In this document: one piece after another, positions 1-33,937 of the stretch | Layout: the number at the start of each line of letters is the position of its first letter | Numbering within the stretch: the first letter of the stretch is position 1 | IMG/VR virus record: IMGVR_UViG_3300022188_000031 | Coordinates: 1 to 34,487 of that record | Length of the DNA stretch: 34,487 nucleotides | Source: a virus | Strand: one strand, 5' to 3' | Notes under the pieces: generated by a model | Told to the model about the DNA's origin: nothing | Database searches by the model: none | The model's input: the letters and a program-made list of their open reading frames with translations, nothing else | Program-made: the position numbers and the translations under genes

Positions 1-1273
1 TTCTCTTCAATTCAGTCATCATTCTCTCGTTGCTATCTCTTATCATTCTTTCTAATTCATCTTTATCACTTACATTAATATTATAACTTGGATTGAAATT
101 AATAATTGTCTCTCCTGCTCCACCACCATGTATACCTAAAAATCTCTCTCCTCCGTGAGCAATTATTGGGACTGGTTCACCAAGTCTACCAGGAACTATA
201 CCTCCATGTTGTCTGGACACTATTTTCTTAGCTGTACCACCAATCATTCCACCAACAGCCTTACCTGCTTTTGAAGCCAAATCTCCTAGTCTATCAGCAG
301 CACGACCAATCCAATCGAAAAATCCTTTAATTTTATCAAATATTGGACTGAATACGTGGTCCCATACCCATTTAACTTTATTTGCGATAGCATCCCAAAC
401 TGCTAACCAAGTTTCTTTCGTAATACCTAAGGATTCTAACAACCCCTGGAAAAATCCTAATATAAATTTAAATGGTATTGCCAATACTTTTGCTGCAGCT
501 TTGAGGAAGCTTACAATAACATTAAATACAGTAACCCAAACATTTTGTAAGAATTTCAACACACCAACAGCTTTATCAACTACTGCAGTAACAATATCCC
601 TGAATCCAAGCCAGTTATTTTTCCAAGCAAGGTATAAAACAATAATTATGGCAATTATTGCTCCTATTATTAACAAAATGGGTCCGAGTGAAGATAGAAT
701 ACTAGTACTAGCAGTTCCAACTACTCCTGCTGCTCCTTTAGCTGCAGTACTTCCAATTCCAAACATTTGTCTCAGACCGTCTAGTCCCAAACCAAGCACG
801 CCAATGGTGGTTAATAATTTACCAACTACAAATCCAACAAGAGTGAGTGAGCCAATTGCCATTTTCACTGGTTCAGGTAGATTCATGAACCAATCCATAA
901 ACTGTAATAAATATGGAAATATAGCTTCCATAACTGGTAAAAATACAACTTGAAGAGTAGATGTCCAAATATCAAATATTCCTAATGCTTCAGCTGCTGG
1001 CTCTAGCCAGCTTCTAAACATTCTGCTTAAATTCATGCCAAAGAACATTACTGATAATAATTCCATTCTGAATCTATGCATACCGTAAATAGTTTTTTTC
1101 TGTACTTTTTGCCAATCATTTTCTGCCCATTTTGAATATTCTATCTCTTTTTTCATTCCTGTTAATCCTTGAGTTACTTTTTCGACTTGTTTTTGTATAG
1201 GAACCCATTGTTTGGTAGATTTATCCATTGTTTCTAATATTATTTCTACTACATGCTGAGTCTTGAATACCAC
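1..1273 (-). CDS. tail tape measure protein (partial, C-terminus off the left edge)
   Basis: About 424 codons are visible; no stop is reached before position 1. Tape measure proteins set tail length and occupy the tail lumen. The N-terminal part is helical and charged (VEKVTQGLTGMKKEIEYSKW), followed by long hydrophobic helices (GPILLIIGAIIAIIIVLYLAW) and then a Gly-rich part with QHGGIVPG and GEPVPIIAHGGERFLGI, a motif typical of the C-terminal half of phage tape measures. The start is a GTG at 1273, directly after the stop codon of the preceding chaperone frame and behind GGTGAGATAA; no ATG is better placed. Position after the tail tube and a frameshifting chaperone pair is the canonical siphovirus order. 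Total length is unknown because the gene is cut by the window. Confidence 0.85.
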   Translation of the reverse strand, partial: MVFKTQHVVEIILETMDKSTKQWVPIQKQVEKVTQGLTGMKKEIEYSKWAENDWQKVQKKTIYGMHRFRMELLSVMFFGMNLSRMFRSWLEPAAEALGIFDIWTSTLQVVFLPVMEAIFPYLLQFMDWFMNLPEPVKMAIGSLTLVGFVVGKLLTTIGVLGLGLDGLRQMFGIGSTAAKGAAGVVGTASTSILSSLGPILLIIGAIIAIIIVLYLAWKNNWLGFRDIVTAVVDKAVGVLKFLQNVWVTVFNVIVSFLKAAAKVLAIPFKFILGFFQGLLESLGITKETWLAVWDAIANKVKWVWDHVFSPIFDKIKGFFDWIGRAADRLGDLASKAGKAVGGMIGGTAKKIVSRQHGGIVPGRLGEPVPIIAHGGERFLGIHGGGAGETIINFNPSYNINVSDKDELERMIRDSNERMMTELKR

Positions 1274-14898: not shown

Positions 14899-16131
14899 TT
14901 ATGCGTCGCTCACGATAATTCTGACGATTGCATCAGAGTGTATTGGACTGACACCGTGACTCATTGTAAGTTTCATTCTTACTTGGTCTGCGTTTGGCCA
15001 ATCAAAGACCTTTATTTCAGGCTTGACTCCCCAGACCAATGCTCCTACTGGTCCTGCCTTAACAAGACCACATAGGTGTGCGTTAGTATCGAATGACTGG
15101 TTGCTTCCTTGTGTAACGATGCTATCTCCACTTGAGATGGATGGTACCTTTGTTGTGCTTACAACTTTAATTCCTAGATACCTACCAATTTCACCATTGA
15201 GTACTACTTCATTGCTACCGTATTCGGAAGCATTCACGAACTGAGAGTCCTTGAGTAATGCTTCCTCTTGCTCAGGTGCAATGAATAGCACGAATGGCTC
15301 CTTTGCAGTAGGTTCCCAAGTATTCTTAGTTACACTGGATTTAGTGAATGTGTTGGAATTCCAGTAATATCCGTGATTTGACATTAATAGTCTCTTTGCT
15401 TTTGCTATTAAGTCAGTTGTTAGAACATCTCCTGGGTCCAGACTGTTGTCTGCATCAGTGGCGTCACCTCCATATATCGTCTGGCAACCATTTGTTGTAT
15501 CACTCATTTCGGTTGCTCCTAAACTTGGAGATGAGCCGGCAGTACCTAGAATAGCGTCTCTGATAGCGGAGTCAATGGAATTCTCATATTTGTATGAGAG
15601 TTCCTCTCTGGCATATGTTACTAGGTTCAATGCATTTGTTCGTATTGCTTCATTTGTCAAAGCAATACCATAGTTGTATCGTGTTGGTGTTATCTGGACA
15701 CCATTTAATGTGTTTATCTGAGTCCATGAAATTTCGCTTCCAGCAGCATATTCAGCACTGGAAGATTCCCATGAACTGTCAGATAGATACTTCGTTCTGT
15801 ATGGTATAATGATGTCCTTGTGTCCTTCTGGTAGTGTGTATTGAGTTACTATTTGCAAGAATCTCATTCTTTCCTTTGCTGCATCAATTGCCTTCTTCAA
15901 GTACATTATTGGCTGTAGCATATATGCATTGCTTACAGCACCTCCTCTTGTTGATGTAGTGGATGTTACTGTTGAAGCGAGTTCAAAAACTCTCCATCCT
16001 AGAGCATTGGTCTTTGGCTCATAGGAAAGCTGGAGAGTTACGTCACCTGCATTGTTGTATAGTCTTTCTCTGAGATATTGTAACATTGATATGTCTACAT
16101 CTTCAGTTGTTCCGGCTGTTGGGTAATTCAT
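14899..16131 (-). CDS. nested in-frame product: major capsid protein alone (internal start)
   Basis: Same frame, starting at Met380 (MNYPTAGTTEDVDISMLQYL), 410 residues, a normal size for an HK97-fold major capsid protein. AAAGGTGAT (GGTGAT at 16138-16143) lies 6 nt before the ATG, the same spacing as the other internal site. This start coincides with the beginning of the capsid domain. Confidence 0.6.
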   Translation of the reverse strand: MNYPTAGTTEDVDISMLQYLRERLYNNAGDVTLQLSYEPKTNALGWRVFELASTVTSTTSTRGGAVSNAYMLQPIMYLKKAIDAAKERMRFLQIVTQYTLPEGHKDIIIPYRTKYLSDSSWESSSAEYAAGSEISWTQINTLNGVQITPTRYNYGIALTNEAIRTNALNLVTYAREELSYKYENSIDSAIRDAILGTAGSSPSLGATEMSDTTNGCQTIYGGDATDADNSLDPGDVLTTDLIAKAKRLLMSNHGYYWNSNTFTKSSVTKNTWEPTAKEPFVLFIAPEQEEALLKDSQFVNASEYGSNEVVLNGEIGRYLGIKVVSTTKVPSISSGDSIVTQGSNQSFDTNAHLCGLVKAGPVGALVWGVKPEIKVFDWPNADQVRMKLTMSHGVSPIHSDAIVRIIVSDA

Positions 16132-16764
16132 ATTTATATCACCTTTAACAGATAGTTTTACACCTTTATTTTCTTCACTTAATTTTTGTTCCATATCAGA
16201 ATTCTTCTTTACTTTTTTCCATTCTTTTGCAGCGGCTTTGACTAACTCAGAGCCCTTGAGCTCTGGATGTTTCTTAGCAAACTCCTTGACGAACTTTGTA
16301 AACTCTGAATTTAATAATTCCTTCTTACCCAAGTACTCGAGCAAATTCCAAACATCATGGTAAGAAATTGCCCTAAGTTCTTGGGTAGTTTCCTTGCTTC
16401 TGCTGTCTACAACGACAACTTCTGGCTTAGTCTCGGCCTGCTCTTCCTCAACAGTCTCAGACTGAGCAGGCGTTTCTTCTGGCTTTGTCTCTGGTTCAGG
16501 TTCTGGCTTTGTTTCTTCTTCATTCTTTTTAGTTTCTGGATATGCATACTTATCAGGGTATGGATATTTCTCTTCTTTCTTTTTCTTTTCCTTGTTTTTT
16601 TCTGTTGTAGGAGGGTATGGATACTCCTCCTTCTTTTTCTTTTCTTTTAATTCTTCATTTTCTGGTTTAGCTTCTGGCTTTGTTTCTTCTTTAGGTTCCT
16701 CGTGAGCAACGGGAGCGTTTTGGCTGGTCTCTTCGTTCTTGAAGTCTATATTTTCTTCAGCCAT
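14899..16764 (-). CDS. nested in-frame product: scaffold-capsid (internal start)
   Basis: Same frame as the polyprotein, starting at Met169 (MAEENIDFKNEE). GGTGAG at 16771-16776 stands 6 nt before the ATG, matching the best ribosome binding sites in this cluster. It falls exactly at the end of the protease region, so the product would be scaffold plus capsid without protease. Comparable to lambda C/Nu3 nested starts. Confidence 0.6.
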   Translation of the reverse strand: MAEENIDFKNEETSQNAPVAHEEPKEETKPEAKPENEELKEKKKKEEYPYPPTTEKNKEKKKKEEKYPYPDKYAYPETKKNEEETKPEPEPETKPEETPAQSETVEEEQAETKPEVVVVDSRSKETTQELRAISYHDVWNLLEYLGKKELLNSEFTKFVKEFAKKHPELKGSELVKAAAKEWKKVKKNSDMEQKLSEENKGVKLSVKGDINMNYPTAGTTEDVDISMLQYLRERLYNNAGDVTLQLSYEPKTNALGWRVFELASTVTSTTSTRGGAVSNAYMLQPIMYLKKAIDAAKERMRFLQIVTQYTLPEGHKDIIIPYRTKYLSDSSWESSSAEYAAGSEISWTQINTLNGVQITPTRYNYGIALTNEAIRTNALNLVTYAREELSYKYENSIDSAIRDAILGTAGSSPSLGATEMSDTTNGCQTIYGGDATDADNSLDPGDVLTTDLIAKAKRLLMSNHGYYWNSNTFTKSSVTKNTWEPTAKEPFVLFIAPEQEEALLKDSQFVNASEYGSNEVVLNGEIGRYLGIKVVSTTKVPSISSGDSIVTQGSNQSFDTNAHLCGLVKAGPVGALVWGVKPEIKVFDWPNADQVRMKLTMSHGVSPIHSDAIVRIIVSDA

Positions 16765-17268
16765 AATTCGCTCACCGTCTTGATTTAATACGAAGAGACT
16801 ATTAGGGATTAAATCGATACCGTCTCCGGTATCATTAGCTTTATTCAAAAATGTACGTTTACAAGCTGGTTCTACAACCAGTGAAAAGTTTTTAAATATA
16901 AAGTCTTTTACACTACCAGACTCTCCTCTACCTACAATCTTGGGGCTAATACCAAATTTAGCACCCATCAGTATAGCCTTTTGAGCATTTTCATCAGCAA
17001 TAATCAAATCAGCAATAATAGTACCATCATCTAAATATTTAGGATTTTCAATAAATCCAATCCAAGATTTAGCACTGGTATCATCATGGTCATAAAACAA
17101 ATATCTTATGCTAGGATTCTCCCAGTCAGTATTCTCAAATGCCTCTTTAAGTTCCTGTTTATCATAGTACCATTGATTCCACACTCCTGTACTCATTACT
17201 GGATGCTGATGAATCCTAAGAATCTTAAATCCGTTCAGTTTCTCCCAACTGATTTTACTCTTAGGCAT
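14899..17268 (-). CDS. prohead protease-scaffold-major capsid polyprotein
   Basis: 789 residues. Residues 1-165 look like an HK97 gp4/herpes-type prohead protease: RYLFYDHDD (candidate His61), FIENPKYLDDGTIIADLIIA, AKFGISPKIVG (candidate Ser108) and FSLVVEPACKRTF. Residues about 170-300 are a Lys/Glu/Pro-rich scaffold-like linker with YPYP motifs. Residues about 300-360 are helical (FVKEFAKKHPELKGSELVKA, HMG/YABBY-like pattern). From residue 380 it is an HK97-fold capsid protein (YLKKAIDAAKERMRFLQIV, GIALTNEAIRTNALN, EPFVLFIAPEQEEALLKD, SHGVSPIHSDAIVRIIV). The first ATG is leaderless behind a TATA box. Two internal in-frame ATGs have strong ribosome binding sites, so shorter products are likely. 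Confidence 0.85.
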   Translation of the reverse strand: MPKSKISWEKLNGFKILRIHQHPVMSTGVWNQWYYDKQELKEAFENTDWENPSIRYLFYDHDDTSAKSWIGFIENPKYLDDGTIIADLIIADENAQKAILMGAKFGISPKIVGRGESGSVKDFIFKNFSLVVEPACKRTFLNKANDTGDGIDLIPNSLFVLNQDGERIMAEENIDFKNEETSQNAPVAHEEPKEETKPEAKPENEELKEKKKKEEYPYPPTTEKNKEKKKKEEKYPYPDKYAYPETKKNEEETKPEPEPETKPEETPAQSETVEEEQAETKPEVVVVDSRSKETTQELRAISYHDVWNLLEYLGKKELLNSEFTKFVKEFAKKHPELKGSELVKAAAKEWKKVKKNSDMEQKLSEENKGVKLSVKGDINMNYPTAGTTEDVDISMLQYLRERLYNNAGDVTLQLSYEPKTNALGWRVFELASTVTSTTSTRGGAVSNAYMLQPIMYLKKAIDAAKERMRFLQIVTQYTLPEGHKDIIIPYRTKYLSDSSWESSSAEYAAGSEISWTQINTLNGVQITPTRYNYGIALTNEAIRTNALNLVTYAREELSYKYENSIDSAIRDAILGTAGSSPSLGATEMSDTTNGCQTIYGGDATDADNSLDPGDVLTTDLIAKAKRLLMSNHGYYWNSNTFTKSSVTKNTWEPTAKEPFVLFIAPEQEEALLKDSQFVNASEYGSNEVVLNGEIGRYLGIKVVSTTKVPSISSGDSIVTQGSNQSFDTNAHLCGLVKAGPVGALVWGVKPEIKVFDWPNADQVRMKLTMSHGVSPIHSDAIVRIIVSDA

Positions 17269-17318: not shown

Positions 17319-20300
17319 CTAAATAAGTCCTAATTGCCTCTGATATAAATATACAGTATTAGGACTAAGTGAAAGCTCATCTGCAATTGTTTTTCTGGAT
17401 ATTCCTGCTTTGGTCATTAAGTATATTCGAGCAAGTTGTTGAGAACTTAGCTTGGGTGGTTTACCTACAGATTTGACTTTATCCCATAACATTATCCATT
17501 TGTTCTTTTCAATATGGGCAATGTGGTAAGAATATTTGCCAGTCACATTGATTAATTTTTTAGGTGGCTTAACTAGAACAGGGGCACCTTCTTTTTTAGC
17601 TTGCTCTATTGGTTTCAAATTAATAATTCCTTTATCAGACTTTAATTCGAAATGAATCAAATGGTCATTAACTTGATGTATGGTATAAATCCCTCTAGCT
17701 ATAATTGTAAATACTCCAGGATAATGAGTACCAGCTGTTCCGATTTTATGAGTCACGCCTTCAAAGAATAACCAATCGATAGGTTCTGGGACTTTTATTG
17801 TACCTCTTACATGTTTGTCAGCCCCATAATTAGTTTCTTCTATTGTTGATGGTTCAAATAGAGTTATACCTTCTAATATTCCTTCCAATTCATCTTTTTC
17901 AAACAGTGTTTCTGCTTTACTATAAGTCAAGACTTTTCCATAATCTTTAGCTGGAATGAAAAATCTAACATCCCTATGAGCCTTTTTACCTATGGTATGA
18001 ACTTGCATTACAAATGGCATCCAGAGCTTATTATCCATTATCTTTTTGAAATTAGCTTGCATTCTGAGCGGGAAATCTCTGACATAAATGTCATGCCCTT
18101 CTGTTTTGGGTTCTGAAGCTAATTTCTTGACAGCAAATCCAATCGATTGAACAATGTTTTCTAAATCATCAACTGTAGATGTAGTTTTCTTTTCTGTAAC
18201 ATGGGCTACTCTTGGTTTGTGAATTGAATAGTGTATACCACTAGAAGTTTCATGTCTCCAAATTTCTTCAATTAAAATTGAAATAATCTTACCTGCATCA
18301 ATTTTTTCATCGGTATTGAAAGTACGACCCAAAACCAAAACATTCTTTCCATTGAGAGTGACTACTTTCTTTGGATTTATCATGTTCATATCTTTTTTTC
18401 TTAGATAGATTCCTACGGTATAATTGTATAATCCTCTTTCTTTAGGATTCCTCTGTAAAACTACTACATCTATATCAACCAAATGTCTATACTTTATCCA
18501 AGCATGTGAAGTTTCATCAAATGAATATGGTGCATCTAGTCTCTTAATCACTGCACCCTCAGAACCTTGTAAATCGGCCGCCCATTTAATTGCCTTCTCA
18601 ACTTCTTCTTTACCTTTAGCAAACTTTCTTGGAATTTTAATTACTCTGTTGTTAAATTTCAGCTTGTGTAAATATTTGATTCTTTCTTTCAATGGTAAAT
18701 GAAGAATAGGCTTATTGTAGTAAATTATATCCCAAACAAAAAGTTTGACATTTTTATCATCAACTTTCTTACCAGATTCTATTGCTCCAATAAATTTCAT
18801 TAGTCCTCTGCGACCAGCAACTTTGTTTCCTTCAAATAAAATTAATTCGCCATCAATTATGAAATCTTCTTTGCTTAATTTTCTAATAGCCTCAATTAAA
18901 GTTGGGAAAGCATCTGTAATGTCTTTTCTCTGCTCTGAAAATATTTTTACTTTATCACCAGATTTGTGAATGCAAGCATGAAATCCATTTGCTTTATATT
19001 CGATGGAATATTCGACATTATCTTCAATTTCTTCCATTACATCTGGAATTTTGTAATATGCAGAACCATAAGGTTTTTGAGGCAGATAAGGCGTAAACAT
19101 TTTTAAATTCACTGCCATTTCAATTACTTTTGGTGGTAGTACTCTGACTAATTTCAAGTCATAAATTGGAATGTAATCATCATGGGGACCAGAAGATTCA
19201 CCAAAAATGAAATGTAATTTATTCGCTAATTCATCTGGCAACATTTTCATTAATCTAACTCTAATTGCACGTTCAAGAAAATCATTTCTAATAGCTGTAT
19301 GACATTTAGGACAGATGATTGGTTCTACTCTAACTAATAAATCAATATCATTAGGATAATGCCCATCTTTGGATTTAACTGTAGAACCAACCAAGCTAAT
19401 TACATCTTTGATGACTGTGAAATCATCAAATTCTTTCAGAAATTTTTCGGGATTGTTTAAATCATATCTTTTGTTTATTATTTCCTTCTTTCTACTTACT
19501 ATTTTGTAAAGTTCTAAAGCATAGTTTTTATAATGTTCTGGATGAAACTGGATTCCTCTTTTTTTCAATTCATCATAGATTAATTTGGCAAGATTTATTA
19601 TTGTCTCTTCAGAATATTTGAATTTTCCTTTAGTTTTCAAAGTTGTGTACCAAGCTAAGACGATTCTCCAGTCATCTTTAAGAACTCTGGTTGGTAACTT
19701 GCTTGGGTTATAAGTTTTAACATTTTCAATTAACTCGACATTAGCAAACTCAATCTCTTCTACTACAGTTTCCAAACCTTCTTTAGGCTTCCACCTTATT
19801 GGATTAATGAATCTATCAATCCAAGTAAAACTATATTCCCAAAATTCCTTTTGGTGTTTCCACCAATTCTTAATTTCATCTTCGGAAATCAAATGTAGAT
19901 TTTTTCTTTCTTCAAATTGTTTCTTAGTAATTTTGTTTGGTGGATGTAATCTGATAACTCCATAAACATAATGTTTATCAACTAAGTACAATGCCTTATC
20001 AACTGAATCTATTTTTTTGTTCAAAACTATTAACTGTTGTTTATCCTGCCAAACCCATTTGGCATGAGGTTCGGGAAGATATAATCCTTCTCGATATTTA
20101 TCTTCTAAATCTAAAGTCATTCCATCATAAGCAAGTAAAACTTTAGTACTGCAGTCTCTTCTAATCTCTTCCCAGTATTTCAATATTTCCTTTTCTGCTA
20201 CTTCAAACTTAGGATAAGTGTGACCAGCTTGAATTAAGATTGCTACTTTAGGTTCATACTTTTTTATTAATCCAAGTGCAGTTTCAACTGATTGATGTCC

Positions 20301-20858
20301 TTTAATTTGCTTGCCAAAGTACATTGCTGCATCTAATATCCAGAGTTTAGCATTATAGAAGTATTTATCACTTTCTTTTGGTATTTCACCTAAATCCTCA
20401 CTATAAATAATATCATTAAAACGATAAGCTACAGTTGGAAATCCGGGCTGAATAGAATGCTCAATTCTAATTGGTAAAAACTTTATCCCATCGACTTCAA
20501 ATTCTTCATAAGGCTTGATGAAATGAGGTTTTAATAAATCTATATTCTTATAATTTTCTTTTATTCTAGCCCACGTTTGTTTTTCGCAATAAAAATCCAG
20601 TGTCTGAATATCTTGGTCTGCTAACCAGTGTATTAAATTAGGAATCCCACCAATTACATCATGATGTGCATGAGTACATAAAACAAAATCAATTTTTTTG
20701 ATATTATTAGCCTTTATTTGCTCAGTGAATTGTGGCGTTACATCTATAATGAATTTCGAGTTCTTTATCTCAAAATAACAAGAACTATTCGTTCTTCTAT
20801 CCTTACCTTCACCCCTCACGGGTTCAGTTGGGCCTGAGCCAAGAATAATCAGTTTCAT
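17319..20858 (-). CDS. multidomain end-processing protein: MBL, Pol-beta NTase, ATP ligase, LigD-PE-like, HTH
   Basis: About 1179 residues from the ATG at 20858; an in-frame ATG at 20876 adds six, and the numbers here use that longer form. Residues 7-250: metallo-beta-lactamase fold (THAHHDVIGG at 68-77, H140, D161, H219). 263-360: a beta domain resembling PUA/ASCH (GLYLPEPHAKWVWQDKQQLI). 485-590: Pol-beta-type nucleotidyltransferase (GS 497-498, D510-I-D512, D573). 620-890: ATP-dependent ligase core plus OB fold (K628-A-N-G, IIDGE 673-677, SEGAVIKR 772-779, WIKYR 793-797). 955-1100: LigD 3'-phosphoesterase-like (H960, H967-R-D969-V-R971, FFEG). 1143-1185: helix-turn-helix. It would process and seal nucleic-acid ends. 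Unusual place, between portal and capsid genes. Confidence 0.8.
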   Translation of the reverse strand: MKLIILGSGPTEPVRGEGKDRRTNSSCYFEIKNSKFIIDVTPQFTEQIKANNIKKIDFVLCTHAHHDVIGGIPNLIHWLADQDIQTLDFYCEKQTWARIKENYKNIDLLKPHFIKPYEEFEVDGIKFLPIRIEHSIQPGFPTVAYRFNDIIYSEDLGEIPKESDKYFYNAKLWILDAAMYFGKQIKGHQSVETALGLIKKYEPKVAILIQAGHTYPKFEVAEKEILKYWEEIRRDCSTKVLLAYDGMTLDLEDKYREGLYLPEPHAKWVWQDKQQLIVLNKKIDSVDKALYLVDKHYVYGVIRLHPPNKITKKQFEERKNLHLISEDEIKNWWKHQKEFWEYSFTWIDRFINPIRWKPKEGLETVVEEIEFANVELIENVKTYNPSKLPTRVLKDDWRIVLAWYTTLKTKGKFKYSEETIINLAKLIYDELKKRGIQFHPEHYKNYALELYKIVSRKKEIINKRYDLNNPEKFLKEFDDFTVIKDVISLVGSTVKSKDGHYPNDIDLLVRVEPIICPKCHTAIRNDFLERAIRVRLMKMLPDELANKLHFIFGESSGPHDDYIPIYDLKLVRVLPPKVIEMAVNLKMFTPYLPQKPYGSAYYKIPDVMEEIEDNVEYSIEYKANGFHACIHKSGDKVKIFSEQRKDITDAFPTLIEAIRKLSKEDFIIDGELILFEGNKVAGRRGLMKFIGAIESGKKVDDKNVKLFVWDIIYYNKPILHLPLKERIKYLHKLKFNNRVIKIPRKFAKGKEEVEKAIKWAADLQGSEGAVIKRLDAPYSFDETSHAWIKYRHLVDIDVVVLQRNPKERGLYNYTVGIYLRKKDMNMINPKKVVTLNGKNVLVLGRTFNTDEKIDAGKIISILIEEIWRHETSSGIHYSIHKPRVAHVTEKKTTSTVDDLENIVQSIGFAVKKLASEPKTEGHDIYVRDFPLRMQANFKKIMDNKLWMPFVMQVHTIGKKAHRDVRFFIPAKDYGKVLTYSKAETLFEKDELEGILEGITLFEPSTIEETNYGADKHVRGTIKVPEPIDWLFFEGVTHKIGTAGTHYPGVFTIIARGIYTIHQVNDHLIHFELKSDKGIINLKPIEQAKKEGAPVLVKPPKKLINVTGKYSYHIAHIEKNKWIMLWDKVKSVGKPPKLSSQQLARIYLMTKAGISRKTIADELSLSPNTVYLYQRQLGLI

Positions 20859-21027
20859 AAACCATCTTCCTCGCATTAAATTCCAATCGATTTAATACCT
20901 TTTTGACCAAATCAATTGGAATGTCCAACGCTTCCGAAATTAAATCTGCATTCAATCCATGTATATTTTGTACGTGCAAATAAAACAAAAATTCCACTAT
21001 TTGTTTTTCAGCTTCCTTTTCATTCAC
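20824..21027 (-). CDS. small winged-helix-like protein
   Basis: About 67 residues from a GTG at 21027 preceded by GGTGATTCAT; an alternative GTG at 21036 overlaps the portal stop as GTGA. The sequence EKQIVEFLFYLHVQNIHGLN, then ISEALDIPIDLVKKVLNRLE, then MVYETDYSWL fits a compact winged helix (helices plus a beta wing). It sits between portal and the ligase fusion and overlaps the latter by 35 nt. Could be a small DNA-binding partner of the fusion or a regulator. Confidence 0.55.
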   Translation of the reverse strand: MNEKEAEKQIVEFLFYLHVQNIHGLNADLISEALDIPIDLVKKVLNRLEFNARKMVYETDYSWLRPN

Positions 21028-21032
21028 ATGAA

Positions 21033-22337
21033 TCACCCTTTCTTGTTTTTAGGCTTTTCAGGCAAGCCTTCAGCCTCCCTAATCCATCTTTCTATTTTTT
21101 CATCTGACTGCAATAATCCTACCTTTGCATATTGAGTCAGTCTAGTGGCTTTTGAATCTAACTCTTCCAATGCAACTTCACCCCAAACTATTTTTGGTAC
21201 ACTAATTTTCTTGTTATGATTTTTGTTATAAAGTTCAGCTATTCTGTAAAAGATTTTGTTTTCTATAGTTGAAACAGTTCTTCTGATTATGTCTTTGAGA
21301 GTTAATTTGGCAATGTATTCTTGTCTAGCTAATGTAGCTCGGTTAGTAGCTTCACCAGAACCAGTTGCAAAGGCTTTAGGCATGCCCATTCCAGTTATAA
21401 TTTGTTCAATGAAGTAATCTAGAAATGAACGTAGCCTTTCTGGGTGTTTTGATTCTAGAATTTGTAATTCATTGTAATAAGCTGTGGCAAAAGCAGTTCT
21501 AGAATTCACATTTTCTAATTCCTTAATTGCATTTGCAATTTGTTCTTCAGTTGGTTCATGCATTTCATCTCCAATTTTAGCAAATAAGAGAGGATTTCCA
21601 ACTCTGTATGCTGAATTGGTATATCCTTCTTCGGCAGCTTTTAATTCTAAAATGGTTTTATAAACAGGTTCAATCAAACCGATAGCTTGCAGACCACTAC
21701 CTATAGTGTAAAGTTTAAATACTACTACTCTTTCTGGTGGGAAGAAAATTTGATTTCCACCGACTTTTACTCTGTCTGGTACTTTGATTCTTTTATCTTC
21801 TGGAATCATTATTGCACCAGGTAAAGTTTGTACATAACCTAAAGGATTTCCGTATTCATCAACTGCAATTCTAAATGAACTGTCTCTGGCATAGTCAAAA
21901 TATTTTGGGTCTATTACATCCAAATCAACAATTTCATCTTTCTCTTTTGCATAAATCAATTCGACTGGTGCAACTCCATAAATGCATTGAAATTGAAATA
22001 TTTTCGTGAGTAGAAACTCCCAGTCATTTTCCCCTCCTCTTTTTCCAATTGTGTTTAAAAATTCCGTAAAGAATTCTACACTTTCTTGGTCCCCTTCTAG
22101 TCTATACCCAGAACTCATTATTATCTGCACTATTTTGTTAATCGTGTTGAAAACAACTGGACATGAATAATATGCTTGCTCCAATAATGTTGGACTGACT
22201 TTCTCAGGCATAAAATCAGAATACTTTACTGACAATGGGTTTGGTTTCAATCCACTTATCATTGGCTTGGCGAGAGTGAACTCTCTCATTCCAATTCTCC
22301 TAGAAATAGCTTGCCTGAGTTTAGTGACTATACTCAT
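21033..22337 (-). CDS. portal protein
   Basis: 434 residues. The portal is the dodecameric ring at the capsid vertex through which DNA is packaged. Family features: N-terminal basic segment, EQAYYSCPVVFNTINKIVQI, WEFLLTKIFQFQCIYGVAPV, DLDVIDPKYFDYARD, PPERVVVFKLYTIGSGLQAI (P-x-x-v-x-h pattern), IEPVYKTILELKAAEEGY, and IEQIITGMGMPKAFATGSGE followed by NRATLARQEYIAKLT. Length is normal. It is next to terminase, as in most tailed viruses. Confidence 0.9.
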   Translation of the reverse strand: MSIVTKLRQAISRRIGMREFTLAKPMISGLKPNPLSVKYSDFMPEKVSPTLLEQAYYSCPVVFNTINKIVQIIMSSGYRLEGDQESVEFFTEFLNTIGKRGGENDWEFLLTKIFQFQCIYGVAPVELIYAKEKDEIVDLDVIDPKYFDYARDSSFRIAVDEYGNPLGYVQTLPGAIMIPEDKRIKVPDRVKVGGNQIFFPPERVVVFKLYTIGSGLQAIGLIEPVYKTILELKAAEEGYTNSAYRVGNPLLFAKIGDEMHEPTEEQIANAIKELENVNSRTAFATAYYNELQILESKHPERLRSFLDYFIEQIITGMGMPKAFATGSGEATNRATLARQEYIAKLTLKDIIRRTVSTIENKIFYRIAELYNKNHNKKISVPKIVWGEVALEELDSKATRLTQYAKVGLLQSDEKIERWIREAEGLPEKPKNKKG

Positions 22338-22360: not shown

Positions 22361-23767
22361 TTAAAAAGTTTTAGGCTTAAGTTCGAATGTGAAAAAAGCC
22401 TTATTCATCGGTCTTTTTACAGGCTTAATACCACTTAAAGCAAGTGCTAAACTCATAACCATATCATCATGGGCTGCAGTAGTCTTATAAGTAGTAGCTC
22501 CAGATGGAGTTTTTGTTACTATAAAAGAAGTAAGTTCCTTATAAAGTTTGTCAGTAAGTGCTAAACAACTGCCTCCAGCTTTTCTTGGAATGACCAATTT
22601 ACCATCTTCCAAAATCTTTCTCAAATTCATTAGGTAATTGTTCCTGCTTGCAAAATCAAACTTACAACCTACCGCCCTAATCTGTTTCGACCTCAACTCT
22701 TGTAAGATTGTAACTCCAAAAGTCGATTCGTCTAAATAAATTGCCTCTGGTCTATACTGATTATAAAGAGACTCGAGTCTTCTTATTTGAGCAGAGATTG
22801 GCATTCCTTTATATCTTTCTATTTTGCGAATGTAATACTTGTCACCTTCAGTTTCTACTACAGTGAAGACGGTATAATCTACATCCTTTCCAGTTCCAAC
22901 AGCAAAGTCAGCACCAATGTAAATTCTACCACCCTGAGATTCACTCTTGAAATCAAGTTTCTCGTCAAAAGCATTAAGCACGAGATTTGGTGGGAAGAAT
23001 GCATCTTCCATTGCAACGACATCACACATGTATTCTTGTCTGAATCTAATCGAACCCATTGTCTGTTTAATTTCCTCCAATCTTTTTTCAGAATAGAGCT
23101 CAGGAAAGATTGGCTTTCCTTCTTTGTCAAAAGCACTATAAACTTTACCAACAAAGACAGGATTCTTTAACAATTTATTTGGGAGGTCTATTGCAGAGAC
23201 TGGAGTTGAAATTACAGCCAGTTTACCGCCCTTAGCCGTTACCCTGGTTATGACCCATCGTTCGAATATGGAATGGTCCTTATACTGAGCAGCTTCATCA
23301 CAAATGACATAATCAACGTGAAATGAACGTATGTTTTCATTGTACGGCTTGCAGAATATCTTGCACTTAGTTGACGTGTTTATCTCAGTTTTTGTCCAAG
23401 TTAGTTTATCCTTTTGTTCTGGTTCTAAAATCTTCAACAGTTCATTCGTTGCAATTGCAGTTTTTATTCTTTCTAGAATTTTCACGGATTGGTCAATTAC
23501 ATTTGAAACTATGAGTATTTGTTTTCTTCTATTGTAAAATGCAAGCCAAAGAGGAATTGCAACTCCAAATATTGCAGTCTTACCGTGACCAGTTGGTGCA
23601 ACTATGACTACTCTATCATGACTAAGAAACATGTCAATCCATTCTCTGTGAAAAGGTTTCAGAGTAAGCCCCAAAACCCTTTCAATCCAGAAGGCCGGAT
23701 TGATTCTCCCATAAACGATGAACTCTTTTTCATCCATACCTTGAAGAATTTCCTCCATCGTACGCAT
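22361..23767 (-). CDS. terminase large subunit
   Basis: 468 residues. The DNA-packaging motor: ATPase plus headful/end nuclease. Walker A APTGHGKT at 57-64, Walker B VICDEA at 154-159, coupling region VISTP near 185. The nuclease domain is RNase H-like: GADFAVGTGKDVDYTV (D287), YLDES (D346), AAHDDMVMSLALAL (D434/D435). N-terminal 'FWIERVLGLTLKPFHREWID' is typical. ATG at 23767 has no ribosome binding site but lies about 26 nt from a TATA box shared with the divergent gene, so it is probably leaderless. No small terminase gene is visible. Confidence 0.93.
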   Translation of the reverse strand: MRTMEEILQGMDEKEFIVYGRINPAFWIERVLGLTLKPFHREWIDMFLSHDRVVIVAPTGHGKTAIFGVAIPLWLAFYNRRKQILIVSNVIDQSVKILERIKTAIATNELLKILEPEQKDKLTWTKTEINTSTKCKIFCKPYNENIRSFHVDYVICDEAAQYKDHSIFERWVITRVTAKGGKLAVISTPVSAIDLPNKLLKNPVFVGKVYSAFDKEGKPIFPELYSEKRLEEIKQTMGSIRFRQEYMCDVVAMEDAFFPPNLVLNAFDEKLDFKSESQGGRIYIGADFAVGTGKDVDYTVFTVVETEGDKYYIRKIERYKGMPISAQIRRLESLYNQYRPEAIYLDESTFGVTILQELRSKQIRAVGCKFDFASRNNYLMNLRKILEDGKLVIPRKAGGSCLALTDKLYKELTSFIVTKTPSGATTYKTTAAHDDMVMSLALALSGIKPVKRPMNKAFFTFELKPKTF

Positions 23768-30960: not shown

Positions 30961-32070
30961 ATGGTTAAACTAACCGCTCAATATAGGAAATTATTGGAAG
31001 ATTGGCTCAAAAGACATAACATAGAACCCGATACAATAGACATTCAGGCGGAGTGGGATAGTCAATTATCATATAGGGAGAATAAGAAACTTCTCGCAGA
31101 GAAATATAACATAGTAGATTTGGAACTTGAAAAGGACGAATATGACGCTTATGAAAATGAACATTTGAGAGAAGAGGCAGACAGAACGGAAAAACAATTA
31201 GCAAAAGCTATAATGAAACTCAAAGGAAATGAGAACGAAATCTTAAATACGGCATTCTCTACGGCAAAAGAACTGGTTAAAACCTTACTGAAAAGCGAGA
31301 ATATTCACGGGCTTATACTGAAAGGCGAGGCTGGAATTGGGAAGTCTCATTTAGTTATGAAGACATTATCAGAAGAAGGCTTAATGCTTGGGAAAGATTA
31401 TAGCATATTAACAGGATATGCTACTCCGCTTGAACTATATTTGTATCTATACGAAAACAGGAACAAAAAAGTATTGGTCTTCGATGACATTATGAAACTA
31501 TTCGAGAACAACATAAATAAGGGAATACTATTATCGGCATTATTCAACCCGACAGGTGACAGGATAGTAAATTACTATTCATCCACTGAAAAACTAACTG
31601 CTCCAAAGACATTTGAGTTTAAACCTAAAATAATCTGGTGTCTAAATGAAATACCACAGGAATTAGAACCGATTAAGTCAAGATGTTTTTACTATGAAAT
31701 TAAATTCGATTATCCTACCAAAATCAAAATCCTATACGCAATAGCACAGGTGAAGAAAATACCATTTGATATTATTGACTTTATAAAGGAAAATACCAAC
31801 GAGGCTTATCAAATAGACTTCAGACTACCTCTCAAAATATATGAAATCTATAAAGCAAATCCTAACAATTGGAAAAATCTATCCTTACAATTACTCCAAC
31901 CAAAGCACGAAGACTTACTAATAGTGAAGGAATTGATGGAAAAATATGCGACTACAAAAGAACAGATTATACAATTTACAAACATTACAGGAAAATCGAG
32001 GGCTACATTCTTCCGATATAAGAGAGAACTGATGGAAAGTCTCAAAGTCTCATCTCATACCTATGGATGA
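30961..32070 (+). CDS. AAA+ ATPase with C-terminal HTH (replication initiator/helicase loader candidate)
   Basis: 369 residues. N-terminal ~100 residues are charged helices (KLLEDWLKRHNIEPDTIDIQ). AAA+ core: Walker A GEAGIGKS (122-129), Walker B VLVFDD (171-176), sensor-1-like IIWCLNE (225-231), arginine-containing PIKSRCFYYEIKF (237-249). The C-terminus (TTKEQIIQFTNITGKSRATF, FRYKREL) is a helix-turn-helix with a recognition helix that could bind an origin. This layout is typical of DnaA/Cdc6/DnaC-like loaders in small archaeal viruses. ATG follows GGTGGGTTA. No helicase or polymerase is visible in the window, so it probably recruits host enzymes. Confidence 0.7.
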   Translation: MVKLTAQYRKLLEDWLKRHNIEPDTIDIQAEWDSQLSYRENKKLLAEKYNIVDLELEKDEYDAYENEHLREEADRTEKQLAKAIMKLKGNENEILNTAFSTAKELVKTLLKSENIHGLILKGEAGIGKSHLVMKTLSEEGLMLGKDYSILTGYATPLELYLYLYENRNKKVLVFDDIMKLFENNINKGILLSALFNPTGDRIVNYYSSTEKLTAPKTFEFKPKIIWCLNEIPQELEPIKSRCFYYEIKFDYPTKIKILYAIAQVKKIPFDIIDFIKENTNEAYQIDFRLPLKIYEIYKANPNNWKNLSLQLLQPKHEDLLIVKELMEKYATTKEQIIQFTNITGKSRATFFRYKRELMESLKVSSHTYG

Positions 32071-32074
32071 TACT

Positions 32075-32773
32075 ATGAAATGGTTAATTGGAATAGATGA
32101 AACGGCACGATGTCCAGCATTAATGCCATTATATGTCTTGGGAATGGCTACTACTGAACCAGAACTCAAAAAGATGAAGCAGAAACTCACATTAAAAGAC
32201 AGCAAATTAACCACCCCCAAACAGAGAGAAAAGGCATTTAAGTATGTAATTCTTCGCTCAAGAAAGTTTAAATTTGAACTGATTAAAATTGCTCCTGAAA
32301 CAATTGATATGGCTGTAAGCGGTAAGCTTCCATTAAAAATGAATCTAAATGATTTGGAAGCAGTTGCTATGATGAATATAATTGATAGATTGGTTAAGAG
32401 AATAAAAAAAGAAGACAAAAATGCTACATTTTTTGTTTATATAAACAATTTTGAACGGGAAAGGAAGCAGTTTATAGACAGGGCCAAAAGTCTTGGATAT
32501 ACTCCAAACGGCTACAAATTAACTCTAACTCACAAATACTATGACATCATCTCTCTGGCGAGTATGGTTTGTAAGCACATAGAGGATACTGAAACCAAAT
32601 CGTGGAAATTTATTTATAATTTTGATTTTGGCTCTAAAAATCCAAACGATAAACGAACTCAAGAATTTGTGAGAAAATTCCCTCACTCTTGGATTATTAG
32701 AAGAAAGTGGGGAACAATCATACCCCGAATTTTAAAAGAGGTAGAAAATAATGGAACTCAAAATCAAGAATAA
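32075..32773 (+). CDS. degenerate RNase HII-like protein
   Basis: About 232 residues from the ATG at 32075 (GGATGAT upstream); an ATG at 32063 adds four, and numbers here use that one. Archaeal RNase HII landmarks are present in order: GIDETARCPALMPLYVLGMA (canonical GIDEaGRGPviGP), LKDSKLTTPKQRE, LTHKYYDIISLASMVCK (canonical HKAD...vSAASilAK) and FGSKNPNDKRTQEF ... RRKWGTI. D12 and E13 remain. The third acidic position falls in YINNFE, apparently Asn, the fourth has YY(D), and the GRG ribose-sensing motif is ARC. Activity is therefore doubtful or altered. It follows the AAA+ gene; primer removal would be the standard role. Confidence 0.7.
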   Translation: MKWLIGIDETARCPALMPLYVLGMATTEPELKKMKQKLTLKDSKLTTPKQREKAFKYVILRSRKFKFELIKIAPETIDMAVSGKLPLKMNLNDLEAVAMMNIIDRLVKRIKKEDKNATFFVYINNFERERKQFIDRAKSLGYTPNGYKLTLTHKYYDIISLASMVCKHIEDTETKSWKFIYNFDFGSKNPNDKRTQEFVRKFPHSWIIRRKWGTIIPRILKEVENNGTQNQE

Positions 32774-33083
32774 GGTCTTTTACATAGGTAATAAGAGAAT
32801 AGGAGTATTGGGTAGGGATAGAGTTTTTAGAATGTATAGAACCAAAAAGAAGCACTATTTCAGAATTTATAATGGATGGGCTCTTAATAAGCAATTGCTT
32901 TATGACCTGCTTCACAAATTTGATATTAGAATAATAGAAATCATAACAACCGATACAAATGAAATCTACAGGACAGATATTCCAACTTGGTTGAAATTCG
33001 GAAAGGAATACAAAAATCCAAAAGATATTAATGACATTCAATTAATTTTAAATCGTCTTTTGTTTGATGTTTGGCAAAGGTGA
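32751..33083 (+). CDS. hypothetical protein (110 aa)
   Basis: Starts MELKIKNKVFYIGNKRIGVL, then FRMYRTKKKHYFRIYNGWAL and NKQLLYDLLHKFDIRIIEII. Overlaps the RNase HII-like gene by 23 nt. N-terminal half resembles the 85-aa protein at 26430 (FYIGxKR), C-terminal half is alpha/beta. Function unknown. Confidence 0.5.
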   Translation: MELKIKNKVFYIGNKRIGVLGRDRVFRMYRTKKKHYFRIYNGWALNKQLLYDLLHKFDIRIIEIITTDTNEIYRTDIPTWLKFGKEYKNPKDINDIQLILNRLLFDVWQR

Positions 33084-33087
33084 TTGG

Positions 33088-33429
33088 ATGGTTTACAGAA
33101 AAGTAGACGAGAAAACACTGAATAAGATGAAAAAGTGGAGAAAAGCTGGCTTATCGTATATGGAAATAGCCAAAAGATTGCACTTATCCAACAATACTAT
33201 TCAATACCACTTGAAAAAAGAATACAGAAAGAAATCAATTGAAAGGGTAAAGAAGTGGCAGAAAAAGCATCCAAAAATAATGCAAGAAAGGAATAAGAAG
33301 TGGAGAAAAGAAAATCCACTAAAGTATAGAAAGATAATTTGCATTTCATTGGTAAAGGGATATTTAAAGAGAAACATAATCAGCATAGATGACTTAAAGC
33401 AAATAATAAAAGAATTTAGGGGTAGATGA
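33088..33429 (+). CDS. HTH DNA-binding protein
   Basis: 113 residues from the ATG at 33088, which has AGGTGATTGG upstream; longer in-frame starts lack this. Residues 1-45 hold a resolvase/Hin-type helix-turn-helix (KKWRKAGLSYMEIAKRLHLS, then NNTIQYHLKKEYRKK). The middle is very basic (KWQKKHPKIMQERNKKWRKE) and the end a helix (ISIDDLKQIIKEFRGR). Likely a regulator of this arm; target unknown, with the CGACAATTGTCG sites being one possibility. Confidence 0.6.
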   Translation: MVYRKVDEKTLNKMKKWRKAGLSYMEIAKRLHLSNNTIQYHLKKEYRKKSIERVKKWQKKHPKIMQERNKKWRKENPLKYRKIICISLVKGYLKRNIISIDDLKQIIKEFRGR

Positions 33430-33430
33430 T

Positions 33431-33568
33431 ATGTTGGAGATTTATAATATAGAAGCCAAAAAATGTGAGAAATGTGACCATTATGTGTTCAGATGGAATT
33501 GGAATGGAGATGAGTATGTTTGTCCATATTGTGGTGCGGTCAGACCAAACTACATTAAGTCTGGGTAA
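33431..33568 (+). CDS. zinc-ribbon mini-protein (45 aa)
   Basis: Translated by hand: MLEIYNIEAKKCEKCDHYVF, then NGDEYVCPYCGAVRPNYIKS. CEKC and CPYC form a classic zinc ribbon or rubredoxin-like knuckle pair. ATG at 33431 after GGTAGATGAT. Its stop lies at the edge of the structured segment. Confidence 0.6.
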   Translation: MLEIYNIEAKKCEKCDHYVFRWNWNGDEYVCPYCGAVRPNYIKSG

Positions 33569-33735
33569 ATTGGAGTGGTAGCATTTGTATACACCTCACT
33601 CGGCTCAAATGCTCTGGAGTTCATTACCACTCCAAGCCTAAATGAAATTGGCTAAACCGAAACTGCATCCGTAGGTCTAGACCTCTACAATCCCAAGTGT
33701 CTGCGTCAAGCAGACCAGCGGTTTCGGGGCTAAAA
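33569..33735 (+). ncRNA. candidate structured non-coding RNA
   Basis: A 167-nt gene-free stretch, clearly richer in G+C than its surroundings. Domain 1: an 11-bp perfect stem (33570-33580 with 33625-33635) leads directly into a 7-bp stem GCATTTG/CAAATGC (33581-33587 with 33606-33612) with an 18-nt loop containing CACCTCA. Domain 2: a 10-bp stem with one G-U pair (33657-33666 with 33718-33727) encloses two hairpins, one around GGTCTAGACC (33671-33688) and one GTCTGC/GCAGAC (33699-33704 with 33710-33715), a three-way junction. It is not a tRNA. Strand is assumed from its neighbours. It might instead be an origin or packaging site. Confidence 0.55.
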
Positions 33736-33748
33736 GGGTGAATGAAAT

Positions 33749-33937
33749 ATGAAGGAGTTTAGAATTATAATGGGAGATGATATTGTAAATGCCTTTTTGG
33801 TCTTTAATTGGGACAATGGAGTATATGAGTTGATGATTGAAAAAGATGGAAAGAGAGAGGTTTTATTCAGTGGAGATATTAAGTATCTCAAAGGAGTCTT
33901 AAAAGATATCTTGGATGAAATTAATAGAAATTGGTGA
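33749..33937 (+). CDS. small hypothetical protein (62 aa)
   Basis: MKEFRIIMGDDIVNAFLVFN, then NGVYELMIEKDGKREVLFSG and a C-terminal helix YLKGVLKDILDEINRNW. Small alpha/beta protein. ATG follows AGGGTGAATGAAAT, which lies just past the structured segment, so that segment could act as its 5' leader. Confidence 0.5.
   Translation: MKEFRIIMGDDIVNAFLVFNWDNGVYELMIEKDGKREVLFSGDIKYLKGVLKDILDEINRNW

Follow-up and report, generated by a model that had tools for sequence, protein, structure and literature searches.

What is the function of a gene-free stretch of 167 nt (positions 33569–33735) lying within an operon whose nearby genes otherwise overlap or nearly touch? The window analysed here is the whole of IMG/VR virus record IMGVR_UViG_3300022188_000031 (34,487 bases, GC 34%), which carries terminase, portal, capsid and tape measure genes (Table 1) and therefore represents a tailed virus. 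The initial annotation had proposed a candidate viral non-coding RNA, with a regulatory RNA, a packaging RNA, an origin or a leader controlling the gene at 33749 as possible roles. Our analysis retained the structured RNA and narrowed its role: it is probably a translational leader that acts in cis, with a bistable helix masking the Shine-Dalgarno (SD) sequence. In this favoured reading, to which we assign a probability of about one in two, the segment is a cis-acting, two-domain mRNA leader in a + strand operon and regulates the 33749 gene at the level of translation through an SD-masking switch.

The description of the segment as free of genes was confirmed: the stop codon of the upstream 45-aa ORF (33566–33568) ends one nucleotide 5' of the first predicted domain (H1), the SD GGTGA and the ATG (33749) of the next gene, encoding a 62-aa protein, fall within 16 nt 3' of the second domain (H2), and the frames in between are no longer than 38 aa or run in from the neighbours. 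The sharp difference in composition was equally evident, with a GC content of 47.3% unmatched by any other 167-nt window sampled every 50 nt, and among the 12 intergenic regions of at least 60 nt the segment alone had a GC above 0.39 and alone had a fold z below −3. The 180-nt gap that holds it is the exception in this part of the operon, and no repeat copies of it were found within the window. No TATA-like site was located directly upstream (the nearest full match, at 33441, lies within the 45-aa ORF), nor any terminator-like site 3' of the segment; with no such sites of its own, it should belong to the mRNA, and its position flush between a stop codon and an SD/ATG is most simply that of an internal leader of the 33749 gene.

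Table 1. Coordinates of the predicted RNA elements and of the genes discussed; states A and B are the alternative pairings described in the text.
Feature	Position	Strand	Remarks
Tape measure gene	2–1273	-	
Major capsid protein gene	14899–17268	-	
Portal gene	21033–22337	-	
Terminase large subunit gene	22361–23767	-	
RNase HII gene	32063–32773	+	among small early-type genes
HTH gene	33067–33429		upstream of 45-aa ORF
45-aa zinc-ribbon-like ORF	33431–33568	+	assigned from sequence; Pfam zinc-ribbon matches weak, below cut-off
Domain H1	33570–33635	+	11-bp stem 33570–33580/33625–33635, perfect inverted repeat
H1 inner stem, 7 bp	33581–33587/33606–33612	+	stacked on 11-bp stem
H1 apical loop, 18 nt	33588–33605	+	
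H1 one-sided bulge, 12 nt	33613–33624	+	3' side
Domain H2	33648–33733	+	three-way junction plus outer stem P2
P2, 5–6 bp	33648–33653/33728–33733	+	outside P3 across AAA bulge
P3, H2 closing stem, 10 bp	33657–33666/33718–33727	+	one G.U
H2 hairpin, 5-bp stem	33671–33688	+	
H2 hairpin, 6-bp stem	33699–33715	+	
Switch strand	33728–33740	+	P2 3' arm running into SD region; pairs 33648–33653 (state A) or 33790–33802 (state B)
SD GGTGA of 33749 gene	33737–33741	+	GGT buried in state B
62-aa protein gene	33749–33937	+	product predicted beta-beta-beta-beta-alpha, PC4/PUR-alpha-like
Early codons ..GCC TTT TTG GTC TTT.. of 33749 gene	33790–33804	+	pair with 33726–33740, up to 15 contiguous bp

Folding of the segment recovered both architectural features of the initial annotation, the 11-bp perfect stem stacked on a 7-bp stem and the second domain with a three-way junction and a 10-bp closing stem (H1 and H2, Table 1), and both folds were still predicted at 60°C. 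Against shuffles (150–200 for the whole segment, 300 dinucleotide shuffles each for H1 and H2), the whole segment had a fold z of −3.4 to −4.1 with no shuffle equally stable, and H1 a z of about −4.2 (0/300), which was equally strong on the other strand and so carries no strand information. H2 was non-random on the + strand (z −2.95, 1/300) whereas the − strand was not (z −0.15, 116/300), a difference that is due to its use of G.U pairs and that argues for an RNA in the same orientation as the genes around it. In a window-by-window scan the segment ranked about 19th of 1376, some coding windows having lower z, so that fold stability alone is not unique to it. A structured + strand RNA at 33569–33735 is thus supported by the strand-specific fold of H2, the GC island and the lack of coding. 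When the whole operon transcript was folded, the upstream ORF offered an alternative partner for the H1 5' arm; such pairing would be blocked by translation of the ORF, and since the ORF's stop codon adjoins H1, a terminating ribosome would probably cover the H1 5' arm. The H1 apical loop also contains CACCTC (CACCUC in the RNA; 33592–33597), a match to the archaeal anti-SD core that may, on its sequence, pair with the downstream SD. A perfect 12-nt palindrome, AGGTCTAGACCT (33673–33684), lies partly in an H2 hairpin loop and could permit RNA loop–loop dimerisation, or protein binding at the DNA level.

None of the known RNA classes examined accounted for these folds. The Rfam search suggested in the initial annotation (Rfam 15.0 covariance models against the window) gave 0 matches at the gathering threshold and none at permissive thresholds, the best sub-threshold match being sno_ZL8 (14.3 bits against 52 required). 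ARAGORN found no tRNA or tmRNA gene, in line with the earlier statement that the segment does not fit a tRNA, and C/D, H/ACA, k-turn and bulge-helix-bulge motifs, searched for by eye in the segment, were not seen. Two of the roles first listed fared poorly. At the segment the cumulative GC skew does not turn, which speaks against an origin, and a packaging RNA gains no support, given that the terminase large subunit and portal of the virus are ordinary. The phi29 pRNA, at about 170 nt and with a three-way junction, is similar in length and junction, but differs in that a conventional terminase large subunit and portal are present here and in that no sequence or covariance-model match was obtained.

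Relatives of the element were sought by several routes. BLAST of the segment DNA against phages and plasmids, a search by way of the neighbouring genes (62-aa ORF, ATPase, RNase HII) and motif patterns in IMG/VR each gave no homologue, the single IMG/VR match to CTAAACCGAAACTGCA falling in an unrelated coding region. Covariance models of H1 and H2 found no relative among 26 loci, and the H2 model run against 389 genomes of the phylum of L035 gave a best E of 0.014 per genome, which is chance level. A word shared with the related virus G002, CTCGGCTCAAA(A)TGC, was rejected as homology because the surrounding structure differs and 58 of 500 shuffles do equally well; likewise, GAAAGTCC in G002 and G007 was considered as an RNase P CR-I box and set aside as lacking Rfam support.

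The evidence that points to a leader came from extending the fold into the 33749 gene. In this longer fold P2 opens, and GGCUAA (33728–33733) together with the SD region pairs with 33790–33803 (codons 15–18) in a helix of 13 bp in the duplex calculation, or 15 bp counting G.U ends (state B; state A retains P2); at 37°C the pairing probabilities exceed 0.9. The two partners of GGCUAA are alike: UUGGUC in the coding strand and UUGGCU in P2. The predicted states are therefore mutually exclusive, sharing 33728–33733, and lie about 2 kcal/mol apart (at 37°C, −68.5 kcal/mol with P2 forced and −70.8 kcal/mol for the unconstrained optimum, which has P2 open and the SD region paired); the gap is no more than 3 kcal/mol up to 80°C, and from 70°C upward the forced P2 state beats the other forced state. 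Of the SD GGUGA, state B pairs only the GGU (33737–33739), and the gene's mean SD exposure, 0.44, is ordinary for this virus. Predicted folds that exclude each other, are nearly equal in energy and share a single strand with the SD have the architecture of a translational switch.

The coding side of this helix also appeared to be shaped by codon choice. At −16.2 kcal/mol, the SD-region/CDS duplex of the 33749 gene was the strongest among 45 genes (next −10.7 kcal/mol), and no codon-order shuffle reached it (0/2000). When the gene was recoded synonymously according to the codon usage of the virus, 163 of 30,000 trials reached the duplex (p = 0.005, somewhat optimistic since the helix had been noticed prior to testing), and in the same test on 44 genes the 33749 gene alone had p < 0.04. 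Two rare synonyms contribute, GCC (6% of Ala codons) and GTC (12% of Val codons), each with a third-position C that pairs with G. It is this 13–15-bp pairing, exclusive with P2 and unusual with respect to recoding, that favours the leader among the roles originally listed.

The product of the 33749 gene offers a candidate effector. A Pfam search with the 62-aa protein found no family at E values up to 10 and a BFVD search gave no confident named match. Its AlphaFold2 single-sequence model (pLDDT 84, pTM 0.59) comprises strands at residues 2–8, 11–20, 25–32 and 35–43 and a helix at 44–61, and its top structural match was PURA repeat III (Z 7.3, rmsd 1.9, 57 residues). PURA, Borrelia Pur-alpha and PC4 homologues head the ranking at Z 5.4–7.3 and 4–10% identity, although a Z below 8 can reflect a common arrangement. 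The best structural neighbours (Z 5.1–7.3, 55–58 of 62 residues) are PUR repeats, bacterial Pur-alpha, PC4 homologues and kindred single-strand nucleic-acid binders, interrupted solely by a KhtT antiporter domain. This agreement among the top matches of the predicted model is suggestive of a PC4/PUR-like single-strand nucleic-acid binder, whereas T4 gp32, a single-strand nucleic-acid binding protein to which we return below, has an OB fold.

From these calculations we infer how the switch might operate, in which direction and with which effector. In state A, P2 would hold GGCUAA and leave the SD free; as P2 is transcribed first, this state would be the earlier of the two. Once the first codons had been transcribed, the slightly more stable state B could form, in which the switch strand and SD region pair with codons 15–18 (33790–33804) and close a 77-nt hairpin that would bury part of the SD and enclose the start codon. 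An effector binding H1/H2 would set the balance between the states. The most likely effector would be the 62-aa product itself, repressing its own synthesis as T4 gp32 does; given the predicted PC4/PUR-like nature of the product, this is the most economical guess. A leader of 170 nt is longer than SD masking needs, which counts against the leader reading, as do its basis in a single sequence, the incomplete burial and ordinary exposure of the SD, the alternative partner of the H1 5' arm and the low Z values of the protein model.

Autogenous translational repression of gene 32 is known in T4 and RB69 (PMC535899; reviewed in PMC3014915). The T4 gene 32 leader resembles the present one in being a structured leader that adjoins the SD of a gene for a single-strand nucleic-acid binding protein, but the two have no sequence relation, an alternative SD/CDS helix is predicted here, and repression is proposed by analogy. 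In archaea, a leader structure controls translation of the RNA-binding protein L7Ae from its own mRNA (PMC6298567), a precedent for leader-based autoregulation there, although L7Ae leaders contain a k-turn, none having been recognised by eye in H1/H2, and the products are unrelated. SD-sequestering riboswitches share the plan of an aptamer stem and an SD-masking stem that are mutually exclusive and have one strand in common; here, however, no known aptamer was matched in Rfam and the masking strand lies within the coding sequence.

The main rival to a leader is a viral non-coding RNA with a trans-acting or structural role, processed from the operon transcript, a stable RNA acting with a protein partner, as a decoy or as an antisense, with the SD/CDS pairing secondary; we regard this as possible, although not probable. 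Screens of GC-rich intergenic regions find structured RNAs in AT-rich genomes (PMC8723152), and the segment is just such a GC island, with two independent compact domains and an H2 fold that is non-random on the + strand only. Two relatives also carry GC-rich structured intergenic stretches of their own, in G002 downstream of RNase HII (L028:13930–14185, with a tRNA T-arm-like GCGGGTTCGATTCCCGC) and in G007 (L049:5580–5800, strongly folded, no Rfam match); as these are unlike the segment and unrelated to it in sequence, the alternative would be that each virus carries unrelated non-coding RNAs. The G002 stretch differs in structure, and its 18-nt likeness to the segment is the chance-level one described above. 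The segment, moreover, has neither a promoter nor a terminator of its own and no Rfam, C/D or tRNA match, and processing into a separate RNA would leave the codon-biased pairing with the next gene unexplained.

That the segment has no function, being an inserted GC-rich stretch or the remnant of a gene, with stems and SD pairing that arose by chance, would agree with the empty homologue search and with the several coding windows of similar fold z. Such a reading is distinctly unlikely in view of the shuffle results (0 of 150–300 for the whole segment and H1, 1 of 300 for H2), the strand asymmetry, the p of 0.005 for the SD/CDS pairing and the compactness of the genome. An as yet undescribed type of riboswitch, in which H1/H2 would be the aptamer for a metabolite or ion, would use an identical bistable platform and suits the two-domain, aptamer-like fold, the lack of an Rfam match requiring the class to be new; we consider it improbable, as such elements usually precede metabolic or transport genes and not, as here, a small predicted nucleic-acid binder, and no homologue found backs conserved loop bases. 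A DNA element (a protein-binding site, recombination site or origin, with stems such as the single-copy palindrome AGGTCTAGACCT serving as DNA-binding palindromes) is highly improbable, for although H1 is a perfect inverted repeat that folds equally well on both strands and an HTH gene lies nearby, H2 folds on the + strand only by way of G.U pairs that are meaningless in DNA, the GC skew has no turning point and there are no repeated copies.

If the leader reading is true, this probably archaeal virus would have a compact, testable structured leader controlling a replication-type protein, parallel to T4 gene 32 but built from different parts. In the listed part of a full-text literature search, no paper naming both riboswitches and archaeal viruses was, judging from title and abstract, about a viral switch, and RNA-based control in archaeal viruses appears little described. 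A more ambitious proposal, which we hold to be rather doubtful, is that the element represents a new class of archaeal tailed-virus regulatory RNA, in which a two-domain leader would sense its own PC4/PUR-like product or another ligand, mask the SD by a helix with the CDS and couple translation to the level of free single-stranded DNA in the course of infection. More generally, an orphan RNA that lacks homologues may become readable if one tests for competition between its fold and a codon-biased pairing where the following gene begins.

GGTG-type SD sites upstream of many genes in the window, a terminase match within a Thermoplasmatales MAG and phage matches that include Halogranum tailed virus 1 together suggest, on sequence grounds, an archaeal host. 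A host search by DNA in the phylum of L035 gave short AT-rich matches only. The relatives G001, G002 and G006 have terminases 51–54% identical to that of the window, and G003 is a partial relative. G002 carries a tRNA-Met (CAT) gene at L028:14491–14564, and in G007 the motif GGGTAGCCT(C/G)TGGC recurs near L049:6183. In G006, a 122-aa frame (L045:7132–7500) consists almost entirely of in-frame tandem repeats of about 12 nt (TCTCAAGTC..) with long self-complementary folds. Between the portal and capsid genes of the window lies a gene (17319–20876, − strand) for an 1185-aa fusion protein with a metallo-beta-lactamase-type nuclease at residues 31–229, a weak nucleotidyltransferase match at 478–519, an ATP-dependent DNA ligase at 610–796 (PF01068, E 1e-28) and an HTH at the C-terminal end; residues 368–608 are seemingly missing from G006. 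The major capsid protein is extended at its N-terminus by about 400 aa, as are its counterparts in relatives.
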